The notes under the pieces: model-generated
What the model was told of the DNA's origin: nothing
Seen by the model: the letters and a program-made list of their open reading frames with translations, nothing else
Databases searched by the model: none
Shown: positions 165-24,965 of the stretch, piece after piece
Position numbering within the stretch: position 1 is the stretch's first letter
Layout: each line of letters opens with the position of its first letter
Made by a program: the position numbers and the translations under genes
Origin: a virus
DNA: 25,047 nucleotides
Direction: 5' to 3' (one strand)
Virus record (IMG/VR): IMGVR_UViG_3300046787_000855
Location: 1-25,047 of that record

Positions 165-491
165 TTATTCCAAAGAAAACATTTCTATTAAAATATTAGA
201 AATATTTTTCTGTGTTGAAGAATGAACAACACCAAGCTTCTTAATCAGTCTTTTCTTATCTATAGTTCTAATTTGATCTAATAAAGCTAGATTTTCAACT
301 CCTTTAAAATCAAATTTTGTTCTAGTAGGCGTTTGAAAACCTTTAGTTGTTAACGGACAAACTATTATAGTATTCATCCAGTTCATCTCATTAGGTGAAA
401 TTATTATACAAGGTCTAGTTTTATTGATTTCACTACCAATAGTGGGATTTAAATTTAAAAGCCAGATATCGAATTGTTTTAAGTTAATCAC
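165..491 (-). CDS. mazF: PemK/MazF-type toxin (mRNA interferase)
   Basis: The protein of about 108 aa has the PemK/MazF signature: an N-terminal QFDIWLLNLNPTIGSE strand, then KTRPCIIISP, and a later CPLTTK segment. In the family the Arg of 'TRP' and the Thr of 'PLTT' sit at the RNA-cleavage site. Family members cut mRNA and stop growth until neutralised by the cognate antitoxin. I place the start at GTG 491-489, which overlaps the mazE stop as GTGATTAA; an upstream TTG at 503 is also in frame. The 8-nt overlap argues for translational coupling with mazE. Length and motifs look complete, so the gene is probably functional. Confidence 0.85.
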   Translation of the reverse strand: MINLKQFDIWLLNLNPTIGSEINKTRPCIIISPNEMNWMNTIIVCPLTTKGFQTPTRTKFDFKGVENLALLDQIRTIDKKRLIKKLGVVHSSTQKNISNILIEMFSLE

Positions 492-717
492 ACCATTTAC
501 CAATATCGCAATCTAAAAAATCTTCATCAGTATCTATATCATTGTTGTGTTCTAAAAAAAACTTATCCCATCCCTCACGTAATTTTTTCTTTAATGGCAC
601 GAGTTTAAGATAATTGTCACTTTCAATTAAGTCTAAACCATTTTCAAAATGATATTTATTTATAATATTTTTAGACAACCTTATTCCTTTAGAGTTACCT
701 ATATCAATTAATCGCAT
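484..717 (-). CDS. mazE: MazE/AbrB-type antitoxin
   Basis: A 77-aa protein starting MRLIDIGNSKGIRLSKNIINKY, the usual swapped-hairpin AbrB/MazE DNA-binding fold ('GNSKGIRL' is the family hallmark). The acidic C-terminus (NNDIDTDEDFLDCD) fits the part that wraps around and blocks the toxin. I chose ATG 717 because AGGTGG lies 5 nt upstream on the minus strand; an in-frame GTG at 726 lies inside that ribosome binding site and is less likely. It precedes and overlaps the toxin gene. Autoregulation is likely through the inverted repeat at 742-770. Confidence 0.85.
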   Translation of the reverse strand: MRLIDIGNSKGIRLSKNIINKYHFENGLDLIESDNYLKLVPLKKKLREGWDKFFLEHNNDIDTDEDFLDCDIGKWCD

Positions 718-741
718 ACAAACCACCTATTATTTACAATA

Positions 742-6426: not shown

Positions 6427-7476
6427 ATGACCCTGATAGATAATTACATTAATATTAAGATTACAAGAGGAACTATAGGAGTTAACTCTTCCTCGTTAAA
6501 TACCTTATTAATTATTGGCGATACTAAGAAAGCGGTAGCAGAAAGTACGCTACCTTTAGTAAAGTCTTACGGCAGTTTAGCGGAAGTTGCATTCGATTAT
6601 ACTAATACGGCTAATCCAGAATATAAGGCAGCAGCTTCATATTTTGGACAAGATGTAAAACCTACAAAACTGCTGATCGGAAGAGTAATAGGCACGCAAA
6701 TTACCGATACTTTTGCAGCGGCTTATCCAAAAATTGCTTTAGCAAATAATGATTTTTACGGCGTTGTCATAACAAGTAAAGTAGAAGCCGATCAATTAGC
6801 AATAGCCGGCTTAGTAGAAGCAGGTAATAAGATTTTTGGGGTTTCTAATGAAAATGTAATAATGCTAGATGGAGGCGATACCAATAGTCTAGCTTATAAA
6901 ACAAAAAACTTAAATCTTTTACGTACTTACGTTACGTATAATGGATTAGCGGCTAACACTTACCCAGAAGCCGCATGGACTGGCAAAATGTTTTCTAAAG
7001 ATGCAGGATCTGCTACTTGGGCATATAAAAATTTAAGCGGAGTTGTGGCAGACAAACTAACAAGTAGCAACGTTACAGGCTTGCAAACCAATAACTGTAA
7101 TTTCTATGTTTCATTTGGCGGCGTAGATTCCATGTTTGATGGTAAAACGGCAGTAGGCGAGTTTATTGATATAGTACAAGGAAGTGATTGGTTAACAGCT
7201 AATATGCAAGCTAAAATTGCCAATGCTTTTTTAAATACCGATAAAATTCCTATGACTAATCAAGGTATCGGTATCTTAGAGAATATGGTAAGAGCGTCTT
7301 TAAATGAAGCTTCCGAGAGAAATATTATTGACAGGCAAAGTATCATTGTAACCGTACCCGATGTTTTAGCTGTTACTCCAGCGGATAGATTGGCTAGAAA
7401 AATAAATATTAGTTTCGAGGCAAGGTTAAGCGGAGCAATACATATAGTCGGTATTAAAGGGACTGTCTCAGTATAA
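6427..7476 (+). CDS. Contractile tail sheath protein, DUF3383 family
   Basis: A 349-aa protein recognised as DUF3383, the sheath of simple myophages: N-terminal 'DNYINIKITRG...NTLLIIGD', then 'PEYKAAASYFGQ..KPTKLLIGRV' and a C-terminal beta domain ending 'GAIHIVGIKGTVSV'. Sheath subunits stack round the tube and contract on infection. The size is small for a sheath, fitting a minimal contractile tail. It is followed 26 nt later by the tube gene. The sequence looks complete. Confidence 0.85.
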   Translation: MTLIDNYINIKITRGTIGVNSSSLNTLLIIGDTKKAVAESTLPLVKSYGSLAEVAFDYTNTANPEYKAAASYFGQDVKPTKLLIGRVIGTQITDTFAAAYPKIALANNDFYGVVITSKVEADQLAIAGLVEAGNKIFGVSNENVIMLDGGDTNSLAYKTKNLNLLRTYVTYNGLAANTYPEAAWTGKMFSKDAGSATWAYKNLSGVVADKLTSSNVTGLQTNNCNFYVSFGGVDSMFDGKTAVGEFIDIVQGSDWLTANMQAKIANAFLNTDKIPMTNQGIGILENMVRASLNEASERNIIDRQSIIVTVPDVLAVTPADRLARKINISFEARLSGAIHIVGIKGTVSV

Positions 7477-7502: not shown

Positions 7503-7928
7503 ATGGCTATAAAAGTATATGATCCTACTCAAGTGGGCGTGATTGTTGGAACATCGCCAATAAATGGCTTTGCAGAGGATTCTATGATTACTATTGAAAT
7601 GGAAGATCCACAGTATGTTGTTGCTACTGATATAAGTGGCTCTCCGACAAGATTTAAAACAAACAAAGCTCTTGCGAAAGTAACTATCAGACTTACTCAA
7701 ACATCTCCTTCAAATGATTTATTAAGCAGTTATGTTGAGCTAGATAGAATAAATAATGCAGGTGTTTTTCCATTAATGATAAAAGATAATAACGGAACGT
7801 CCTTGTTTACTAGTACGGCAGCTTTTGTTGAGCAAGTACCAAGTGTAGAGTTTGCTAATGAAAACAAGAACCGTGAATGGGTTATTAAAGCAACTAATGT
7901 AGTCAAATTTATTGGAGGTCTTAAATGA
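7503..7928 (+). CDS. Tail tube protein, DUF3277 family
   Basis: A 141-aa protein that fits DUF3277 tube proteins: 'PINGFAEDSMITIEMEDP', 'RFKTNKALAKVTIRLTQTSPSNDLLS' and the terminal 'WVIKATNVVKFIGG'. It forms the inner tube of the contractile tail and pairs with the sheath gene upstream. Its stop is overlapped by the next start (ATGA). Confidence 0.85.
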   Translation: MAIKVYDPTQVGVIVGTSPINGFAEDSMITIEMEDPQYVVATDISGSPTRFKTNKALAKVTIRLTQTSPSNDLLSSYVELDRINNAGVFPLMIKDNNGTSLFTSTAAFVEQVPSVEFANENKNREWVIKATNVVKFIGGLK

Positions 7929-8299
7929 TGACAAAAACGGAAACCAAAGGGATTATGGGTCATAAGTATATTTGTACTTTATTTCCAGCCATGCAAGGGT
8001 ATCTGCTGGCTAGGAAGTTACTTGATGTTTTTATCAGTAAAGAGCCTATCGCAAAATTATGCGAGGTAGATAAAAACGGAGAGCTTATACTTGAACTACT
8101 TAGTAATACCGTAAGAGATGAACAGGTCATTAATGCTGGAAGTTTTAATAGCATCTATACAGGTAATTACAAGGAAATGATGGGGGCTTTGACATTTGTG
8201 TTTGAGGTAAACTTTAAAGATTTTTTAGCGGTAAGCGATACTGGCGAAGACGCTTCACCTCTTGCGGAAATGATGGCAGCAGTATCGCAGAAAGACTAG
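7925..8299 (+). CDS. Tail assembly chaperone, short (G-like) form
   Basis: A 124-aa protein between tube and tape-measure genes, the invariant place of the tail assembly chaperone. The N-terminal part contains 'YICTLFPAMQGYLLARKLL', and the C-terminal part ends in an acidic 'DTGEDASPLAEMMAAV'. Chaperones of this class bind the tape measure and recruit tube subunits. After its stop at 8297-8299 there is no normal start, yet the -1 frame stays open and protein-like to the tape-measure start, so this gene probably makes a second frameshifted product (next entries). Confidence 0.75.
   Translation: MMTKTETKGIMGHKYICTLFPAMQGYLLARKLLDVFISKEPIAKLCEVDKNGELILELLSNTVRDEQVINAGSFNSIYTGNYKEMMGALTFVFEVNFKDFLAVSDTGEDASPLAEMMAAVSQKD
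8221..8259 (+). promoter_or_regulatory. Programmed -1 frameshift site: slippery T TTT TTA and stem-loop
   Basis: The heptamer TTTTTTA at 8221-8227 is in the exact zero-frame register (gat ttt tta) for the classical X XXY YYZ slippery site. Two bases later, GGTAAGCG (8230-8237) pairs with CGCTT-C-ACC (8251-8259) in an 8-bp stem with one bulged C and a 13-nt loop. A slip here opens a frame that ends exactly at the tape-measure start. This arrangement is known from lambda G/GT and P2 E/E'. Efficiency is unknown. Confidence 0.7.
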
Positions 8300-8466
8300 A
8301 TTTTTCTTTAAGTGAAGAATTATTTTTATGGAGACCTGTTTTGGATAAGGTCGTTACTTATACGGAAATTTGCTCCGTTCTATCTTTAAGTGATGTTATG
8401 AAGATTAACGATCTATTAGATATGAAAAACGACCTAGAACAAGAGTCTTATCAAAAGAGTAGATAA
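8227..8466 (+). CDS. Frameshift extension of the tail assembly chaperone (GT-like product)
   Basis: This is the -1 frame part of a predicted fusion that uses codons 7925-8227 (101 aa) and then 79 more codons to TAA 8464-8466, about 180 aa in all. The later portion, 'LDFSLSEELFLWRPVLDK' and onward, is hydrophobic/charged balanced and clearly protein-like. No good start codon with a ribosome binding site occurs in this frame, so independent translation is unlikely. The stop touches the tape-measure ATG. In lambda the T domain binds tube protein and the G domain binds the tape measure. The first 20 codons after the slip are Arg-rich and less typical, so a slip nearer to 8290 cannot be excluded. 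Confidence 0.65.
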   Translation, partial: SGKRYWRRRFTSCGNDGSSIAERLDFSLSEELFLWRPVLDKVVTYTEICSVLSLSDVMKINDLLDMKNDLEQESYQKSR

Positions 8467-9969
8467 ATGATAGCAAGAGAATTACTAGTAAAACTTGGCT
8501 TTGATATTGACAGTAGCAAATTGGATAAATTTAATGCATCAATAGACGCTACTAAGAATAAAATGCAGGCTATCAGAAATAGTAGTTTGCAAAGTATTTC
8601 TTCCATAGGAGGTAGCAAATTAGCCAATGCCATTCACCTAAAGACAAATAATCGTATTTCAGTTCTCAAAAATTATAATGACGAATTAGCTGAATTATCA
8701 AAAAGTGAAAGAGCGGAAGTTTTAGCCTTAAACAGGATAGAGAATCAAACTATCAAGGAAACCACTAAAGTAGAAAAAGCCGAATTAAAAGAACGGCAAA
8801 GGCTAACTAGAGAGGCATTCCAAGAAAAACAAATTTTACAAAAATCAGAACAAAGAAGTTTTACAACTTCTCTAGCTTCTATGTCTAGGGTAGCACGGAA
8901 GTTTGCTATTTTAGGAGCTTCAATTACCGCTGGATTTGGTTTAAGTCTACGATCAACATTAAAGGATGCGGCTCATTTTAAAGAAGGTAAGAGTTCAAGT
9001 AGTTTTGATAAGAGTCAAATATCTACTGTTGATAATTTCAACAAGGCTTTAAATGCTACTCGTTCTACAGTAGCAAATTTGAGGAATAGTTTTGTAATTG
9101 ATATGCTACCTGCTATCAAGGAAACCTTAGAAGTTTTTAACGCATGGACTCAAAAAAACAAAGTTTTTATACAAGAAAAATTAAAAGACATAGTAGCAGG
9201 ATTGGCTGGGGCTTTTAAGATATTAAGTTCAGTAATAAGGCAAGTAGCATCTATACTTGATTTTATTATTAGCAAAACGATAGGGTGGCGCAGTATTATT
9301 ACTGCTGTTATTTCTTTAGGGGTAGCAGCATGGTTTATATCACTAGCTAGTTCTGTAATTGTAGCTGCTAGAGCTTTTAAGGTGTTATCTCTAGCTATCT
9401 TAAGCAATCCCCTAGTTTTGGTTATTACCTCTATTACCGCAGCATTGGTCTTATTAGTAGACGAGATATATGTAACTATACAAGGCGGCGATAGTTTTAT
9501 TAATGACTTCTTAAAAAGCGATGCTTGGACTTTTTGTAAGAATTCTATTGATAATGTGGTGCAATCCCTACGTGATATGTGGCAGTGGTTACTCAAAGTA
9601 GGGGACGGTATACTTAATTTTCCCTCTAACATTACCACTGAGATTAAGGGGTTACTTGATAGCGGAGCAAGTAAGTTTAATGATGTTTTTAACAATGATC
9701 TTGGTAAGTTAGGACAGGGTAATGTAAAGCAATACGCGCTACCTAAATACGAGCCAGAATTGTTAAGCAGAGTTCTTAACTCGAATGTTACTAATAATGC
9801 TAGGTCGGCAAACATAACTCAAAAAAATTCATTCAATATGAATATTGCCGTACCTGACGGAACAACGCAGGAGCAGTCAAAAGAGATTCTAACTTTAGTT
9901 AGAGCCGAGATAGAGAAAAATAGAGCTTACGAGACCGAGAAAACTTTAGCTGCAATTGGGAGTTATTAA
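8467..9969 (+). CDS. Tail tape measure protein
   Basis: A 500-aa protein right after the chaperone. It shows a long charged helical region (about residues 60-140), a short hydrophobic segment (about 148-163, 'FAILGASITAGFGLSL') and a large hydrophobic block (about 276-335, with 'AVISLGVAAWFISLASSVIV' and 'LVLVITSITAALVLLV') that may form membrane segments during DNA ejection. Tape measure length sets tail length at roughly 0.15 nm per residue, so a tail near 75 nm would be expected. It begins directly after the preceding TAA. Gene order and composition make the call secure. Confidence 0.85.
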   Translation: MIARELLVKLGFDIDSSKLDKFNASIDATKNKMQAIRNSSLQSISSIGGSKLANAIHLKTNNRISVLKNYNDELAELSKSERAEVLALNRIENQTIKETTKVEKAELKERQRLTREAFQEKQILQKSEQRSFTTSLASMSRVARKFAILGASITAGFGLSLRSTLKDAAHFKEGKSSSSFDKSQISTVDNFNKALNATRSTVANLRNSFVIDMLPAIKETLEVFNAWTQKNKVFIQEKLKDIVAGLAGAFKILSSVIRQVASILDFIISKTIGWRSIITAVISLGVAAWFISLASSVIVAARAFKVLSLAILSNPLVLVITSITAALVLLVDEIYVTIQGGDSFINDFLKSDAWTFCKNSIDNVVQSLRDMWQWLLKVGDGILNFPSNITTEIKGLLDSGASKFNDVFNNDLGKLGQGNVKQYALPKYEPELLSRVLNSNVTNNARSANITQKNSFNMNIAVPDGTTQEQSKEILTLVRAEIEKNRAYETEKTLAAIGSY

Positions 9970-16694: not shown

Positions 16695-17672
16695 ATGGCA
16701 GGAAAACAAATTACTGAATTAGAAAGCACTAATAAGATTTCAGAAGGAGATCTGTTATTCGTCAGAAAAACAACTAGCGGTACTGATAAGAAGATTAACT
16801 ATACTGATCTTGTTGAAAGTATCGGTAATCCAGCAATAGATGGTTTTGTAGCAATAGTAGATCCATTGGATGCGAATACTATAATTTTAACACCTGCCAA
16901 TAATGCCAGGATACCTCGTTACTTTGTCGGTATGAAAATATCCTTTGTCTCGCCTATTACAAGTACAGGGAGTGTAAAAATAAAAGTAGGTAGTTTGACG
17001 GCTAAAGATTTTGTTCAATACCAGACCACCTCAACAGTAATTTTAGGTGTAAATGATTATGTAGAGGGAGTATTTATTACTGATAAATTTCATCGGATTA
17101 ACGATCTTCGCTCTGTAGCTAATATTTATTCAAATGAATATAATGTAATATTAACAACAATAGATCCTAGCGAACAGTTTACTACCCTAAATTTAGTTTC
17201 TTCTATCGGTATCCCAAAACAATCTTATTACGATGGAATGGCTATCTCTTTCATTACTCCCGAGAATACCAAGGGAGTTACTCTAATACATATAGACGGT
17301 ATAACTGGGACAAAGACTATTTTTGAACCAGATTTAGAAGATTTTACTAGTCTCCCGCTTTATGCTAATCAAATTGTCCATGCAATATACAAAACTGCGC
17401 AAGGAGGGTTTATAAGAGATAGGTTTAGCGTTCAAGATCCGACCGTCTCAGAACCTATTGTACCAAGTATTGATAATCCAGACGAGCCTTATATTCCTCC
17501 ACAAAATATTCTTGAGTTTACTGTGGGAGCAAACGAAAAATTTAAGAACTTACAGGAGGCTGTACAGAACTTAACACAGGAGTTTGGTAAAGATGGAGGG
17601 GGGAGACAAGTTACATTGTTAATTAGGGGTTCTTTGCAGGAAGGTACGGATTTTCTCGACATAGGTGTCTAG
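16695..17672 (+). pseudogene. Tail fibre gene, 5' part, interrupted by Tn3-family transposon
   Basis: The frame begins MAGKQITELES and runs 310 codons before entering the transposon at 17626, where it reads 15 residues of transposon end and stops at 17670-17672. The N-terminal domain (about 1-270) is beta-rich with a fibre-like 'KQITELESTNKISEGDLLFV' start, then a linker 'EPIVPSIDNPDEPYIPPQ', then the beginning of a pectate-lyase-like region 'FTVGANEKFKNLQEAVQNLTQEFGK'. The remainder of the gene is at 22008-22639. Joined with one AATTA copy the frame gives 520 aa without a stop. The shortened product probably cannot bind host cells. Confidence 0.85.
17621..17625 (+). repeat. Target-site duplication AATTA, left copy
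   Basis: AATTA immediately precedes GGGG of the left inverted repeat and is matched by AATTA right after the right end (22003-22007). Five-bp duplications are the mark of Tn3-family transposition. The in-frame rejoining of the fibre gene fits the same insertion event. Confidence 0.85.
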
Positions 17673-17723
17673 CCCTTTAGTTATAAGGCACACAGAGGAC
17701 GAGTTGATTTTAAAATGATGAGG
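17626..17723 (+). repeat. Left terminal inverted repeat of Tn3 element
   Basis: The 98 bp starting GGGGTTCTTTGCAGGAAGG match the inverse of 21905-22002 with 5 differences. The outermost ~38 bp correspond to the classical Tn3 transposase-binding end. Its leading strand happens to encode 'RGSLQEGTDFLDIGV' in the fibre frame. Confidence 0.9.
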
Positions 17724-17808
17724 TAGTGAAACCTTGAAACCCTTTTAGATTAAGGTGTTCAGACTTTGGATAATTTTCATGGCTTTTTGCAAAGTAGATT
17801 TGTGCCTA

Positions 17809-18369
17809 TTATTTTGTTAGTCCTGCTGCGATAGCTCGGTAATATACAGAGCGGCTAATCCCGACCATAATACAAATCTTAGTCACAGAAAATTCTTCTG
17901 ACTGCATTAGTGATTTTAATGTTTTTAGTTTATCTGTCGTAAGAGCTTTAGGTCTTCCGCCTTTCCTTCCTTTACTATGGGCTGCATCTAAACCTGCTTT
18001 AACTCGCTCCTTTATTAGTTCTCGTTCCATCTCAGAAAATGCTGCACACATACTAAAGAGCAGCATTCCCATTGGGGTTGTAGTATCGATGTTATTTTCT
18101 AAAGAGATAAATTCAATGCCTTTAACTTTAAAACCATTTATAAGATCAATAAGCTTTATCATCCTTCGTCCTAAACGGTCAAGACGGACAACGCAAATAG
18201 TATCGCCTTTTCTTAGTTTACCCATTAGAAGATTTAATTGTACTCTATTGTCCTTAGCGCCAGAAATTTTCTCTTGAAAAATTTCGTTACAACCAGCCGC
18301 AGTTAATTTTTGTATTTGCACATCTAAGCTTTGATCATTTTTTGAGACCCTTGCATAACCAAATTTCAT
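17809..18369 (-). CDS. tnpR: Tn3-family serine resolvase TnpR
   Basis: A 186-aa protein with the resolvase/invertase pattern: catalytic Ser9 in 'YARVS', 'RLDRLGRRM' (about 62-71), 'LENNIDTTTPMG' and 'EMERELIKERVKAGL' E-helix, then a C-terminal helix-turn-helix ('KICIMVGISRSVYYRAI'). It resolves cointegrates at res. AAGGAT lies 5 nt upstream of its ATG on the minus strand. Divergent from tnpA, as is normal in many Tn3 elements. It looks intact. Confidence 0.92.
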   Translation of the reverse strand: MKFGYARVSKNDQSLDVQIQKLTAAGCNEIFQEKISGAKDNRVQLNLLMGKLRKGDTICVVRLDRLGRRMIKLIDLINGFKVKGIEFISLENNIDTTTPMGMLLFSMCAAFSEMERELIKERVKAGLDAAHSKGRKGGRPKALTTDKLKTLKSLMQSEEFSVTKICIMVGISRSVYYRAIAAGLTK

Positions 18370-18537
18370 TTTTATCCTTAGTTTATTAAAATTTCTGTTT
18401 CAAAAACCTAAATGATAGGGTATTTTGCTATGAAGTCAATTGGTACTAGTTTTGAAGCAGATTTTTTAAGTAAATATGTGATAAATGTAAGTTTGGTTTA
18501 GGGACACCTAAAACACTCGTTTTTGGAATGGTAAATT
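18370..18537. promoter_or_regulatory. tnpR-tnpA intergenic region, probable res site and divergent promoters
   Basis: This AT-rich 168-bp spacer divides the divergent genes. In Tn3 elements the res site (three resolvase subsites) and both promoters lie here. A short perfect palindrome TTTAGG-GACA-CCTAAA is at 18497-18512, near tnpA. I could not define the three subsites. Confidence 0.55.
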
Positions 18538-21500
18538 ATGGCAAGACTAAGAATTTTATCAGATGATGATTTTGATAAATTATATAAAATACCTAAACTT
18601 AATAATGAGGAACGTCAATTTGTTTTTGAATTAGATGAGATTGATAAAAACTACTTAAATACAATTAATAGCATTCCTGTAAAAATCAATTATATTTTGA
18701 ATTTAGGTTATTTTCGTACATCTCAATATTTCTTTTCTTTTACATTTCAAGCAGTCAAAGAAGATGTAAGATTTATTATAAAGTCTTATTTTGCGGGAAG
18801 TTCTTTCCCTATGAAGCAAATAAGTAATCGACAATACTACTCAAATCGTCAAGTTATCCTCAATAAATATGAAATGTCTTTATATACCAAGAGTTTTCAA
18901 AGTCATTTATCAAATTATCTAAAATCTGTAGTAAAACAGCACTCTGTCCCTAAATACCTATTTGATTCTCTCTTAGATTACTGCCATCAACATAAAATCA
19001 TTAGGCCATCCTACTCAATATTACAAGATTTAGTCTCTGGAAGCTGCAATAACGAGAAGCTACGTATAAGTAATAAGCTCTATACAATAATGGATAGTTC
19101 GCTGCGTAAGTCTTTAAGCAAGCTTTTGGAGAAAAACGACTTATTTTATCAACTCACTCTGATTAAAAAAGACCAAAAAGATTTCACCACCAATGAAATA
19201 AAATCAAGTGTCGAAAAGAACAAGTTATTATTTGAAATATACCACAGTTCAATTGAAATTATAAAGCAGTTAGATATTTCAGAACAAAATGTAGCTCACT
19301 ATGCTGAGTTAGCTGGACAATATACCGTATATGGATTGAGAAAACTTAAGCAACCTAATCTAGCAAGGTTATATCTGTTATGCTACGTCCATTATAGATT
19401 TTTAAAGATTAATGATCACCTAACCAGTAGCTTCATTCATAAAGTTAATGGCTATATTGACGATGCTGACGCTTACCAAAAGGAAACAATTTACCTTGCT
19501 CAAGTAACGGATAAAGATAATCGTGATTTGGCTGCAAGTATTTTATCGCTACATATAAATAAAAAAGTTCCTGATAATGAGCTGCGTAATAAGTCTTTTG
19601 TAATTGTTGCTAAAGAAAAGTTTCAGCAATTTATTCAGAAAATTAGAAAGCCCCATTTGAGTCCAGATTTTTACAGATGGCAGTATTATAATAAAAATGC
19701 ACCTGCAATTAAACTAAATACTAGGTTAACCTTCAAAGCTCTGGATTTTCAAACTAAGTCCAAGGATCTTAGCAAAGCTATTGCATTTCTAAAAACTCAT
19801 TTTGATAGTCATAAGTCATTTAGTGACTATCAATTTGAAGACGTTCCTCTTGAATTTATTTCTCCACCACTAAGGCGCTATGTGATTACGAAAGTTAAGT
19901 CGGGGAATAATAAAAAAAAAATTAAGGTTATCAATGCTGATGCTTATGAATTTATGTTATATACTCATATTGAAAAACACCTAGGCAAAGGAACTGTCAC
20001 TATCAAAGATAGTTTAAGTTACAGATCCCTTGATGATGAGCTTATTAAAAAAGAATACTGGGATAAAGACAAAGATAGTATTCTACATAACCTAGGAAAT
20101 CAGCTAATCTCAATCGATATTGAAAAAATATTAGACAATTGTGAATCGTTACTGAGTAAACGCTATAAAGAGATCAATCAAAAGATTAGTTCTGGTATTA
20201 ATAGCAAGATTAAGATTAAATATAATAAAAAAGGAGAAGTGACTAGTTGGAAGATGCCTTATAAAAAGATAGAAGATAGCGTTAATAATCCATTCTATGA
20301 AAATATGAATATTTCCAGTTTAGGTCAAATTATTAAGTTCACAAATCATCATACAGATTTTATAAAGAAATTTACTCATATCTTGCCAACTTATAGTAAA
20401 ACCCAAGCAGAAGAAGCTTCGATTGCAGCTTGCTTAGTAGCTAAAGGTACGGGAACTGATATATATAAAATGAAAGATATAAGTGATGTTAAAGAGCAGG
20501 ATTTAACATCTACATATAATAGTTTTATCCGTTATAAAACACTAACTGATTCAAGCGATACAGTAATGAACAAGATAGCTAAGCTGCCAATATTTGAGAA
20601 GTATACACTAGCAGACTATGGCATACATGCAAGCGTTGATGGGCAGAAGCTAGAAACACGATATAACACAATTAAGGCAAGGTATTCTTCGAAATACTAT
20701 GGATTTGGTAAAGGCATTTCGGCTTATACACTATTTGCTAACTGCTTGCCATTATGTACTAAAATAATAGGTTCAAATGAACACGAAAGTCACTACCTTC
20801 TAGATGCCCTAAAAAGTAACACCAGTGACATTAGCGTTTCTGCGGTATCTGGTGATATGCATAGCATCAACCGCGTCAATTTTATCCTACTTTATATGTT
20901 TGGCTATAGGTTTATGCCAAGATTTACGAAGCTTGATCAAAAAGTGCGTGACCACATGGTAAGTTTTGATGCCCCTGATTCAAGTCGATATAAAGGATGT
21001 CTTATCAAGCCTAATAAAAAAGTAAATAAAAGTCTTATTATCAAAGAATCGGATAATATGTTAAGAATCTTTGCAACATTAGGGCTAAAGAAAAACACTC
21101 AGAGCAGTATTGTAAAGAAATTATCATCATATAAATCTAATGATACGTTGAGAGCCTTGATAGAATTAGATAAAATCATTATGACTCTTTATATTCTGGA
21201 CTACATAGATGATGAAGAAATGCGTAAATGTGTTCACCGCTCCCTAAATCGTGGAGAATCATATCACCAACTAAGATCAGCTATTGCTAAGGTAAGTGGT
21301 AGAAAGTTAATTGGTAAAAATGAAATAGAGCTTGTCCTTAATAATGAATGTGCCAGGTTGTTGGCAATATGTATTATCTTTTATAATGCATCATTATTAT
21401 CAGGAATATATGAATATTGTAAAAATAATGGAATGCTAGAGGAATGCAAAAAAGTCCTCAGGTTATCGCCTGTTGCGTGGATTCATATTAGCCTTATAGG

Positions 21501-21582
21501 AAAATATGAATTTACAAATAATGTTATACTTTTGGATCTGCAGGGAGTTATAGCTCAATCAGTATGTAACCTTCAGATATAA
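18538..21582 (+). CDS. tnpA: Tn3-family transposase TnpA
   Basis: A 1014-aa protein of family length. N-terminal 'ARLRILSDDDFDKLYKIPKLNNEERQFVFEL' is the usual Tn3 start. The D-D-E catalytic triad is seen at Asp701 ('HASVDGQK'), Asp773 ('VSGDMHS', followed by 'FGYRFMPRFTKL') and Glu907 ('LNRGESYHQLR'). The C-terminus ends 'LSPVAWIHISLIGKYEF', as in family members. It cuts the terminal repeats and joins them to AT-rich targets with 5-bp duplication. There is no frameshift or internal stop, so it is probably functional. Confidence 0.93.
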   Translation: MARLRILSDDDFDKLYKIPKLNNEERQFVFELDEIDKNYLNTINSIPVKINYILNLGYFRTSQYFFSFTFQAVKEDVRFIIKSYFAGSSFPMKQISNRQYYSNRQVILNKYEMSLYTKSFQSHLSNYLKSVVKQHSVPKYLFDSLLDYCHQHKIIRPSYSILQDLVSGSCNNEKLRISNKLYTIMDSSLRKSLSKLLEKNDLFYQLTLIKKDQKDFTTNEIKSSVEKNKLLFEIYHSSIEIIKQLDISEQNVAHYAELAGQYTVYGLRKLKQPNLARLYLLCYVHYRFLKINDHLTSSFIHKVNGYIDDADAYQKETIYLAQVTDKDNRDLAASILSLHINKKVPDNELRNKSFVIVAKEKFQQFIQKIRKPHLSPDFYRWQYYNKNAPAIKLNTRLTFKALDFQTKSKDLSKAIAFLKTHFDSHKSFSDYQFEDVPLEFISPPLRRYVITKVKSGNNKKKIKVINADAYEFMLYTHIEKHLGKGTVTIKDSLSYRSLDDELIKKEYWDKDKDSILHNLGNQLISIDIEKILDNCESLLSKRYKEINQKISSGINSKIKIKYNKKGEVTSWKMPYKKIEDSVNNPFYENMNISSLGQIIKFTNHHTDFIKKFTHILPTYSKTQAEEASIAACLVAKGTGTDIYKMKDISDVKEQDLTSTYNSFIRYKTLTDSSDTVMNKIAKLPIFEKYTLADYGIHASVDGQKLETRYNTIKARYSSKYYGFGKGISAYTLFANCLPLCTKIIGSNEHESHYLLDALKSNTSDISVSAVSGDMHSINRVNFILLYMFGYRFMPRFTKLDQKVRDHMVSFDAPDSSRYKGCLIKPNKKVNKSLIIKESDNMLRIFATLGLKKNTQSSIVKKLSSYKSNDTLRALIELDKIIMTLYILDYIDDEEMRKCVHRSLNRGESYHQLRSAIAKVSGRKLIGKNEIELVLNNECARLLAICIIFYNASLLSGIYEYCKNNGMLEECKKVLRLSPVAWIHISLIGKYEFTNNVILLDLQGVIAQSVCNLQI

Positions 21583-21904
21583 TTGATACTAAAAACGAAA
21601 CAAGGTAAAAAAATCAGAAGAGGGAATTCAAAAAACTTGACTGATACTAATACAACGGCTACACTAAACAAGTGTTTAGGGTAGCTAAGAAAAAGAGCTT
21701 ACCTAGAATTTCAAGCTGTCCATCTATCACAATAATACTCGTATTCCAAGAACATTATCAAAATTAAATCGTAAAAAATACTGTGATAAATCTTACGTTT
21801 CCAATAACAGTGCATTTGATACTAATTTAGACACAGAAAAAGTTCATATGAAAATCATCCAAAAGCTGAACTCCTTGCTTTAAAAGGCTTTCAAGGCACC
21901 ACCC
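21583..21904. other. 322-bp non-coding right arm of transposon
   Basis: No intact gene is here. One open stretch on the plus strand ends at 21880 ('LNRKKYCDKSYVSNN...') without a convincing start; it may be remnant coding DNA. An imperfect hairpin with 11-bp arms and one mismatch lies at 21660-21683 (core CTAAACA-AG-TGTTTAG) with no T-run, so terminator function is uncertain. Confidence 0.5.
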
Positions 21905-22002
21905 CCTCATCATTTTAAAATCAACTCGTCCTCTGTATGCCTTATAATTAAAGGGCTAGACACCTATGCCGAGAAAATCCGTACCTTCCCGCAAAAAACC
22001 CC
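21905..22002 (-). repeat. Right terminal inverted repeat of Tn3 element
   Basis: These 98 bp, read on the minus strand, start GGGGTTTTTTGCGGGAAGG and match the left repeat with 5 transitions. The next five bases, AATTA, duplicate the left target site. Confidence 0.9.
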
Positions 22003-22007
22003 AATTA
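22003..22007 (+). repeat. Target-site duplication AATTA, right copy
   Basis: Matches 17621-17625 and lies directly after the right repeat. Removing 17626-22007 restores codons Ile-Lys-Asp and an open fibre frame. Confidence 0.85.
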
Positions 22008-22639
22008 AAGATACTCTTACCAAAACAAGCGCAATATTTGCAAATAATCTAAACCTAAGTTGGATAACGTTAAGCGGTGCAGGCGATATAATTAATTTTG
22101 ATTTGTTAAATCATACTATAAACAGCAGTTATTTTCAGTTAGAATATGGCAGTGAATTTTTTAATATAGCCAAAAATACTATAGTTACTTGTAAAAACTT
22201 CCCTACCAACGTAACTTTTATTCAGTTAAGTGATTCATTTTCAAAGTTGGAATATATAACTTTTAAAAATAATGATTTGACTGCTACTAGGTTATTTACA
22301 GTGGTTCGTAGTAATGCAGATTTTAAAAATTGTGTTATCGAGGGTGGCAGGGAAGTTATGCGTATCACAATGAGTGCCGTAGTTTCATTAGACGCTTGTG
22401 TTATTAAGTCGTATCAGACGAGAGCTTTATCTATTGACTCAAGTTCAACTGTTACTATAAACAATTGCGATTTATCATCTAACGGAACTTCTGCTACAAC
22501 AAATATCAATATAGGCAATTCGTTTTCAAAAGTAGATCAGTATAATTCGAAAGCAAAATCAAATTATGCACCAAATACAGGCGAAAGTAATGGGATGTTT
22601 TATAGAGTAACAGGTTCTCAGGACATACAAGGAAGTTAA
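22008..22639 (+). pseudogene. Tail fibre gene, 3' part (separated by transposon)
   Basis: The open frame from 'KDTLTKTSAIFANN' to the TAA at 22637-22639 continues the frame of the upstream fragment. It encodes a right-handed beta-helix like region: short strand repeats such as 'FIQLSDSFSKLEYITFKNNDL', 'NADFKNCVIEGG', 'SLDACVIKSYQTRALSI', 'TVTINNCDLSSN', which stack N/C/D turns as pectate-lyase-like fibre domains do. A TTG at 22103 is an in-frame alternative start, but no ribosome binding site supports it. Without a promoter or start it is likely silent. It would have formed the receptor-binding end of the fibre. Confidence 0.85.
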
Positions 22640-24194: not shown

Positions 24195-24240
24195 TAGACA
24201 CCTATGCCAAGAAAATCCGTACCTTCCCGCAAAGAACCCC
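24195..24240 (-). repeat. Solitary third copy of the Tn3 terminal repeat (46 bp)
   Basis: 46 bp match the outer end of the right inverted repeat with 2 differences, in the same orientation as the copy at 21905-22002. The match stops at 24195; the inner 50 bp of the 98-bp repeat are absent. It is followed by AATTA (24241-24245), exactly like the true right end. No opposite end is found nearby besides the one at 17626. Confidence 0.85.
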
Positions 24241-24289
24241 AATTAGAACCAGAAGCAATACACATTTTTATTAACAAAAATTGTGCATA

Positions 24290-24353: not shown

Positions 24354-24965
24354 ATGAAAAAATTATCTGCAATAGATATAGCAAACTATTTTTTATCATT
24401 GACAGACCTAGATAGCGGGGAAGGAATATCTAATCTTAAGTTACAAAAGATCATGTATTATGCTCAAGCATTACATTTAGCGTTATTTGATAAAGTACTT
24501 TTTGAAGATAACATTGAAGCTTGGCCACACGGTCCAGTTATATCAAATATATACCACGACTGTAAAATATATAAAAACAATCCTATTCCTTCTGCGCAGA
24601 TCGATATATCATTATATCCTCCTAAAATACAAAATTACTTAAATCAAATTTATTATACTTATGGCCAATATTCAGCTTGGATACTAAGAGATTTAACTCA
24701 TATAAAAAATACTCCTTGGGATTTAGTTTATGAGAATAACTCTTCTTCAGTAGAAATCCCAACTGAATTAATGAAAAATTTTTATAGGACATTGATTCTA
24801 ATAGAAGAAGAATCAAACAAAATATCTTCATTACAGGATAAAATAGAATTTTGTCTTAATGTAGAAAAAAATGCACTTAGCAACCCTGACTTACCCCTTG
24901 ATTTTATTGCATCAAGTTTAATAGCTAACGATCAATCTAAAAAGATTAATTCATTAGATGATTGA
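24354..24965 (+). CDS. Panacea-domain (DUF4065/SocA-like) antitoxin
   Basis: A 203-aa protein: 'SAIDIANYFLSL', 'ISNLKLQKIMYYAQALHLAL', 'LFEDNIEAWPHGPVISNIYHDCK' are the three conserved segments of the DUF4065/Panacea domain. Members act as antitoxins or adaptors for diverse toxins; SocA delivers its toxin SocB to ClpXP. Residues after about 140 are a helical tail. The AAGGAG ribosome binding site is 8 nt upstream. A second gene starts 2 nt after its stop, so a two-gene toxin-antitoxin operon is probable. Confidence 0.8.
   Translation: MKKLSAIDIANYFLSLTDLDSGEGISNLKLQKIMYYAQALHLALFDKVLFEDNIEAWPHGPVISNIYHDCKIYKNNPIPSAQIDISLYPPKIQNYLNQIYYTYGQYSAWILRDLTHIKNTPWDLVYENNSSSVEIPTELMKNFYRTLILIEEESNKISSLQDKIEFCLNVEKNALSNPDLPLDFIASSLIANDQSKKINSLDD

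Follow-up and report, generated by a model that had tools for sequence, protein, structure and literature searches.

The tail assembly chaperone (TAC) gene in the viral DNA analyzed here (the window, 25,047 nucleotides, positions 1 to 25,047 of IMG/VR record IMGVR_UViG_3300046787_000855) very probably contains a programmed −1 ribosomal frameshift, judging from its sequence and from the sequences of related phages. Two versions of the chaperone are almost certainly made from this one gene, with some ribosomes shifting back by one base on a stretch of six Ts. Most ribosomes would read positions 7925 to 8299 (plus strand) to give a 124-amino-acid protein (TAC-N), and those that slip would continue in the −1 frame to position 8466 to give a 180-amino-acid protein (TAC-NC). 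By analogy with the lambda G/GT proteins, the shared N-terminal part may bind the tape-measure protein and the C-terminal part may recruit tail tube subunits; we infer the slippage itself, its frequency, and this role in assembly. The mechanism is a known one found in a further lineage, of which the window is a well-supported new example.

Profile matches of the encoded proteins indicate that the operon is of the contractile-tail type. It encodes, on the plus strand, a tail sheath protein (6427 to 7476; phrog_205, E = 3.3e-85; DUF3383, E = 6.7e-33), the tail tube protein that is the upstream neighbor of the chaperone (7503 to 7928; phrog_280, E = 3.5e-36; PF11681 just under its cut-off), and, downstream, the tape-measure protein (8467 to 9969; phrog_8125, E = 5e-20, and other tape-measure families). 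The order of tube (phrog_280), TAC (PF21822), and tape-measure genes is that expected around a chaperone gene. In profile searches, TAC-N matched Phage_TAC_15 (PF21822; E = 5.1e-9, 37.2 bits versus a gathering score of 22), its sole Pfam match, and phrog_1613 (E = 2.7e-9). In its AlphaFold model (mean pLDDT 82.8), TAC-N is folded until approximately residue 106 and has a disordered tail, with the slip position near the end of the long last helix.

The original prediction placed the slip at an in-frame T_TTT_TTA at positions 8221 to 8227 (plus strand), and we observed this heptamer directly in the X_XXY_YYZ register, at the same codon position as in relatives. The 0-frame around it reads GTG TTT GAG GTA AAC TTT AAA GAT TTT TTA GCG, of which the codons GAT TTT TTA GCG provide the slippery register. 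The last −1 stop, a TAA at 8215 to 8217 on the plus strand found by translation, sets the upstream limit of the slip and ends 3 nt before the heptamer. As had been claimed, the −1 frame is open from before the slip, here from 8218, to a TAA at 8464 to 8466, which adjoins the tape-measure ATG at 8467, and the 0-frame stop (TAG, 8297 to 8299) leaves a gap of 167 nt (8300 to 8466). The lengths predicted for the two products also hold, since a fusion made after the slip would consist of 101 plus 79 residues (180 amino acids) versus 124 for the unshifted protein. Doubt had been expressed about the precise slip position, with the Arg-rich stretch that follows it as one ground. The position is now firmer because the last −1 stop lies only 3 nt upstream and because the Arg-rich peptide is conserved after the slip.

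Taken as a single sequence, the window offers evidence for frameshifting that is suggestive only, and the strong evidence is comparative. The heptamer on its own is within chance for an AT-rich window and is not significant: an in-frame XXXYYYZ occurs at 41 of 5,205 in-frame positions, and the probability of finding one in the 26-codon overlap is approximately 0.19 when calculated from the gene-wide rate and 0.43 when synonymous codons are shuffled. The probability that the overlap is open in the −1 frame is 0.10, and that for the 54 codons after the 0-frame stop is 0.007. The ease with which the heptamer arises (P = 0.19 to 0.43) is what favors an account without recoding, in which positions 8300 to 8466 are an accidental open stretch. 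We consider its probability negligible, since it is contradicted by the conservation of the −1 peptide across distant phages, and it is also opposed by the concentration of changes at −1 third positions and by the confident modeling of the extension as helices.

Relatives were gathered via the tube protein because a tblastn search with TAC-N against the phage collection gave no match. The IMG/VR loci L003 to L023 were collected in this way, and L042, L043, and L048 were collected via a tape-measure start pattern. The named phages (L024 to L041) represent Pakpunavirus, Nankokuvirus, Otagovirus, Felixounavirus, Vequintavirinae, Justusliebigvirus, Barbavirus, and Kleczkowskavirus and also include Acinetobacter, Aeromonas, and Yersinia phages. 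Sheath and tube searches of genome contigs gave no match. Duplicates were not counted, whether the same contig fetched twice (L002/L003/L008, L004/L011, L005/L012, L006/L013, and L007/L014) or loci identical around the slip site (L043/L049). All 31 of the aligned TAC proteins matched PF21822.

Conservation of the heptamer was one check proposed for the original prediction. Of 35 related loci, drawn from many phage groups, 33 had a slippery sequence in frame in the overlap, after the last −1 stop and at the same codon or close to it; this is a count of loci rather than independent events and includes some close relatives (e.g., L025 and L041). The exceptions, judged by sequence, were L033 and L034, in which the heptamer is not recognizable despite a −1 extension. 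The usual slip position is one homologous codon within N-[YF]-x-x|FF, mostly as T_TTT_TTN. Wherever N-[YF]-x-x is followed by Phe-Phe or Phe-Leu, the sequence is T_TTT_TTN, except in the L004/L009/L010/L048 and L005/L006 groups; these two groups have A_AAA_AAA or T_TTT_TTG at a position farther downstream. The residue before the slip varies (D, G, S, C, or P), its codon is always NNT, and the first Phe codon is always TTT; the joint chance of this over 12 lineages is approximately 6e-9 from local codon usage, with the lineages treated as independent and the amino acids as given. T_TTT_TTG is present in L005, L006, L042, and L043, C_CCT_TTA in L016 and L017, G_GGA_AAG only in the Barbavirus relative L027, and the noncanonical G_GTT_TTT in L024 and L029 to L032. 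Felix-type loci have T_TTT_TTC, and Vandenendeviridae-type loci have G_GTT_TTT in the register used here. When Felix-type or rV5-type loci were compared with their most distant blastn hits, only 41 to 69 nt could be aligned, and this segment contained the slip site. As for the two exceptions, the Acinetobacter phage locus L033 (5187 to 5582) and the Yersinia phage locus L034 (4584 to 4952) have a TAC gene with a long −1 extension, in which only T_TTT-like single-codon slippage would be possible.

The same comparison bears on whether the −1 product could arise by RNA polymerase slippage on a homopolymer run rather than by ribosome slippage, which we regard as highly improbable. Runs of nine As or Ts do occur at the slip site in L004, L005, L006, L009, and L010, but the run is six Ts in the window and six bases in most relatives, and the sites of L016 and L017 (C_CCT_TTA) and of L027 (G_GGA_AAG) contain no long run and are nevertheless compatible with tandem tRNA slippage. 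At the five loci with nine-base runs, transcriptional slippage could supplement or replace ribosomal slippage.

The −1 extension forms the C-terminal part of TAC-NC (8227 to 8466, plus strand; 79 amino acids plus stop) and is conserved in relatives. It matched phrog_4364, a family of unknown function (E of about 2.3e-6 to 2.5e-6), better than DUF6889 (PF21829), for which its 14.2 bits missed the cut-off of 23.9 bits. A profile search of PDB sequences found nothing relevant, and an NCBIfam search found nothing. The AlphaFold model of the extension has three helices, with pLDDT values of approximately 90 from about residue 30. In the proposed alignment to related chaperones, the −1 peptide aligned across related TAC loci and was conserved from just after the slip, and in the loci examined the −1 frame extended as far as the tape-measure gene. 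The Arg-rich stretch did not prove a ground for doubt, as R-[YF]-x-[RK] is conserved soon after the slip, with FFxGKRxW in the closest relatives. In comparisons of close pairs, the differences after the 0-frame stop fell at −1 third positions in 10 of 13 (P = 0.0016), 21 of 30, 17 of 22, and 12 of 15 cases. Protein-type constraint in the −1 frame is directly observed; the extension is under protein-level selection and has no start codon that is conserved among relatives.

This last point weighs on the alternative of a separate small gene for the second part, which we consider very unlikely. The candidate start is a TTG at 8341, preceded at approximately 7 nt by GGAG, and many, indeed most, deposited records of related phages list a separate short open reading frame here. 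However, ATG, GTG, and TTG are all missing from the −1 frame before 8341, and this TTG is a CTG in L003. Both SIAERLD..EELFLWRP, a conserved motif, and the extension's first long helix precede 8341, and we rejected this start because of the CTG in L003 and because its use would drop that helix. The position of the first start varies widely among relatives, and in L007 no start follows the slip. The independent, conserved start that would have spoken against frameshifting was not found.

Besides the heptamer, we looked for elements that might stimulate the frameshift in the window. Although a stem of 8 bp with one bulge can be drawn at 8230 to 8259, as originally proposed, it was rejected because its pair probability is approximately 0.01 and most of its pairs are lost in L003, the closest relative. 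The structure predicted in its place is a perfect 9-bp stem with arms at 8235 to 8243 and 8280 to 8288 (plus strand), which begins 7 nt after the heptamer, has a loop of 36 nt, and is a possible stimulator. Both arms are unchanged in L003, with none of the 13 differences in the overlap falling within them (P = 0.016), and the shuffle p value for the stem is 0.005; the stability of the whole 63-nt segment is unremarkable (z = −0.49). Stems of like size and spacing are present in L007, L020, and L031, and a comparable stem is absent in L004, L005, L009, L042, and L043; the pooled Fisher value for stems over 22 loci is 9e-6, with many loci showing none. By sequence, no single stimulatory structure is conserved across the loci. 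A pseudoknot noted by eye, between loop sequence CTTCAC and a downstream GTGAAG, was dropped since the loop partner is missing in L003, and Rfam gave no relevant match.

A second possible stimulator is the Shine-Dalgarno-like GAGG at 8204 to 8207 (plus strand), 13 nt upstream of the heptamer and inside the 9- to 14-nt range of spacing for Shine-Dalgarno stimulation of −1 shifting (PMC5009743). GAGG occurs at the same spacing in L003, L007, L015, L025, L026, L040, L042, and L043 and is absent in L004, L005, L009, and L010. Since GAGG doubles as codons for a conserved Glu-Val/Ala, its conservation could have a protein-level cause.

The closest known systems are those of the Vandenendeviridae phage Adele and of Andersonviridae (PMC12846349) and that of the Felix O1-like phage Moogle (PMC4319497). 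In December 2025, a report on Vandenendeviridae and Andersonviridae described a conserved programmed frameshift (−1, with the motif GTTTTT) in their TAC genes and remarked on misannotation of the second part (PMC12846349). Those genes resemble that of the window in having a homologous TAC-N (PF21822), a location between the tube and tape-measure genes, a −1 shift near the 3′ end, and a likewise misannotated second part. They differ in the motif, GTTTTT in that report (PMC12846349) versus T_TTT_TTA in the window, whose AT-rich, prophage-like lineage is outside its coverage. We found no paper on the window's lineage in a literature search that covered few subscription journals.

Frameshifting in the −1 direction is classical for lambda and P2, and U_UUU_UUA is reported to be a weaker slip site than A_AAA_AAG in Escherichia coli (PMC5009743), a point against the frameshift proposed here. 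The P2 E/E+E′ genes (FETUD operon) share with the window a contractile tail, a −1 shift, and a chaperone ahead of the tape-measure gene, but no sequence relation was evident, PF21822 being the one Pfam family matched by the window protein. P2 slips on T_TTT_TTG, a type that recurs in four of our loci (L005, L006, L042, and L043). Lambda G/GT likewise combines a short form and a rare −1 extended form encoded between tube and tape-measure genes, whereas the lambda tail has no sheath. Lambda slips on G_GGA_AAG, found here solely in L027.

The slip types seen across the PF21822 group (T_TTT_TTN, A_AAA_AAA, C_CCT_TTA, G_GGA_AAG, and G_GTT_TTT) suggest an evolutionary reading that we put forward tentatively, as having a little less than an even chance. 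The recoding module may be ancestral across PF21822 contractile-tail phages and its parts exchangeable, with the −1 domain retained as the slip type changed and the site in some lineages shifted by a few codons; the stimulators, GAGG at a constant distance of 13 nt upstream and a 9- to 10-bp stem (30- to 45-nt loop, 4 to 8 nt downstream), would have been gained and lost independently. Such an aligned series, in which the slip site changes type and place, should be useful for studies of how recoding signals evolve. To the two groups for which the −1 frameshift has been published, our results add an AT-rich prophage-like lineage, Vequintavirinae, Stephanstirmvirinae, and Barbavirus, as well as a Rhizobium phage and several metagenome phages.

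They also correct the annotation of a widespread gene pair, as the related records examined either omit the −1 part or treat it as a small gene of its own and never join it to the chaperone. Those of L024, L026 to L029, L038, and L039 list the −1 extension as a stand-alone hypothetical gene that starts internally, or lack it; examples of its position in deposited records are L026 3658 to 3840, L027 3561 to 3722, L024 4576 to 4728, and L029 4084 to 4227. In the L025 record (LR597663.1), the two chaperone genes are labeled "Hc1 head closure" and "Tc1 tail completion," and the tape-measure gene is labeled "tail sheath"; in L041, the RefSeq record of the near-identical phage, they appear as chaperones and tape measure.

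Several other elements were seen in the window. A Tn3-family transposon (17619 to 22009; transposase 18538 to 21582, resolvase 17809 to 18369) has 162-nt inverted ends (87%), with a third copy of the end at 24195 to 24245, and interrupts an open reading frame at 16695 to 17672 that is probably a tail-fiber gene; the closest plasmid transposases are from Legionella (63%). The prophage-like element carrying this insertion may be inactive. A transposase gene of the PD-(D/E)XK nuclease family (PF12784; 12965 to 13834) is inserted inside the tail/baseplate operon. One end of the window carries a PemK/MazF-like toxin gene and a small upstream open reading frame (165 to 726, minus strand), and the other carries an antitoxin-like SocA/Panacea-domain gene (24354 to 24965, plus strand). 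A gene for a Gram-negative porin (PF13609; 22789 to 24063, minus strand), an unusual neighbor of phage genes, may be a sign of a segment that is transposon-borne or of host origin.
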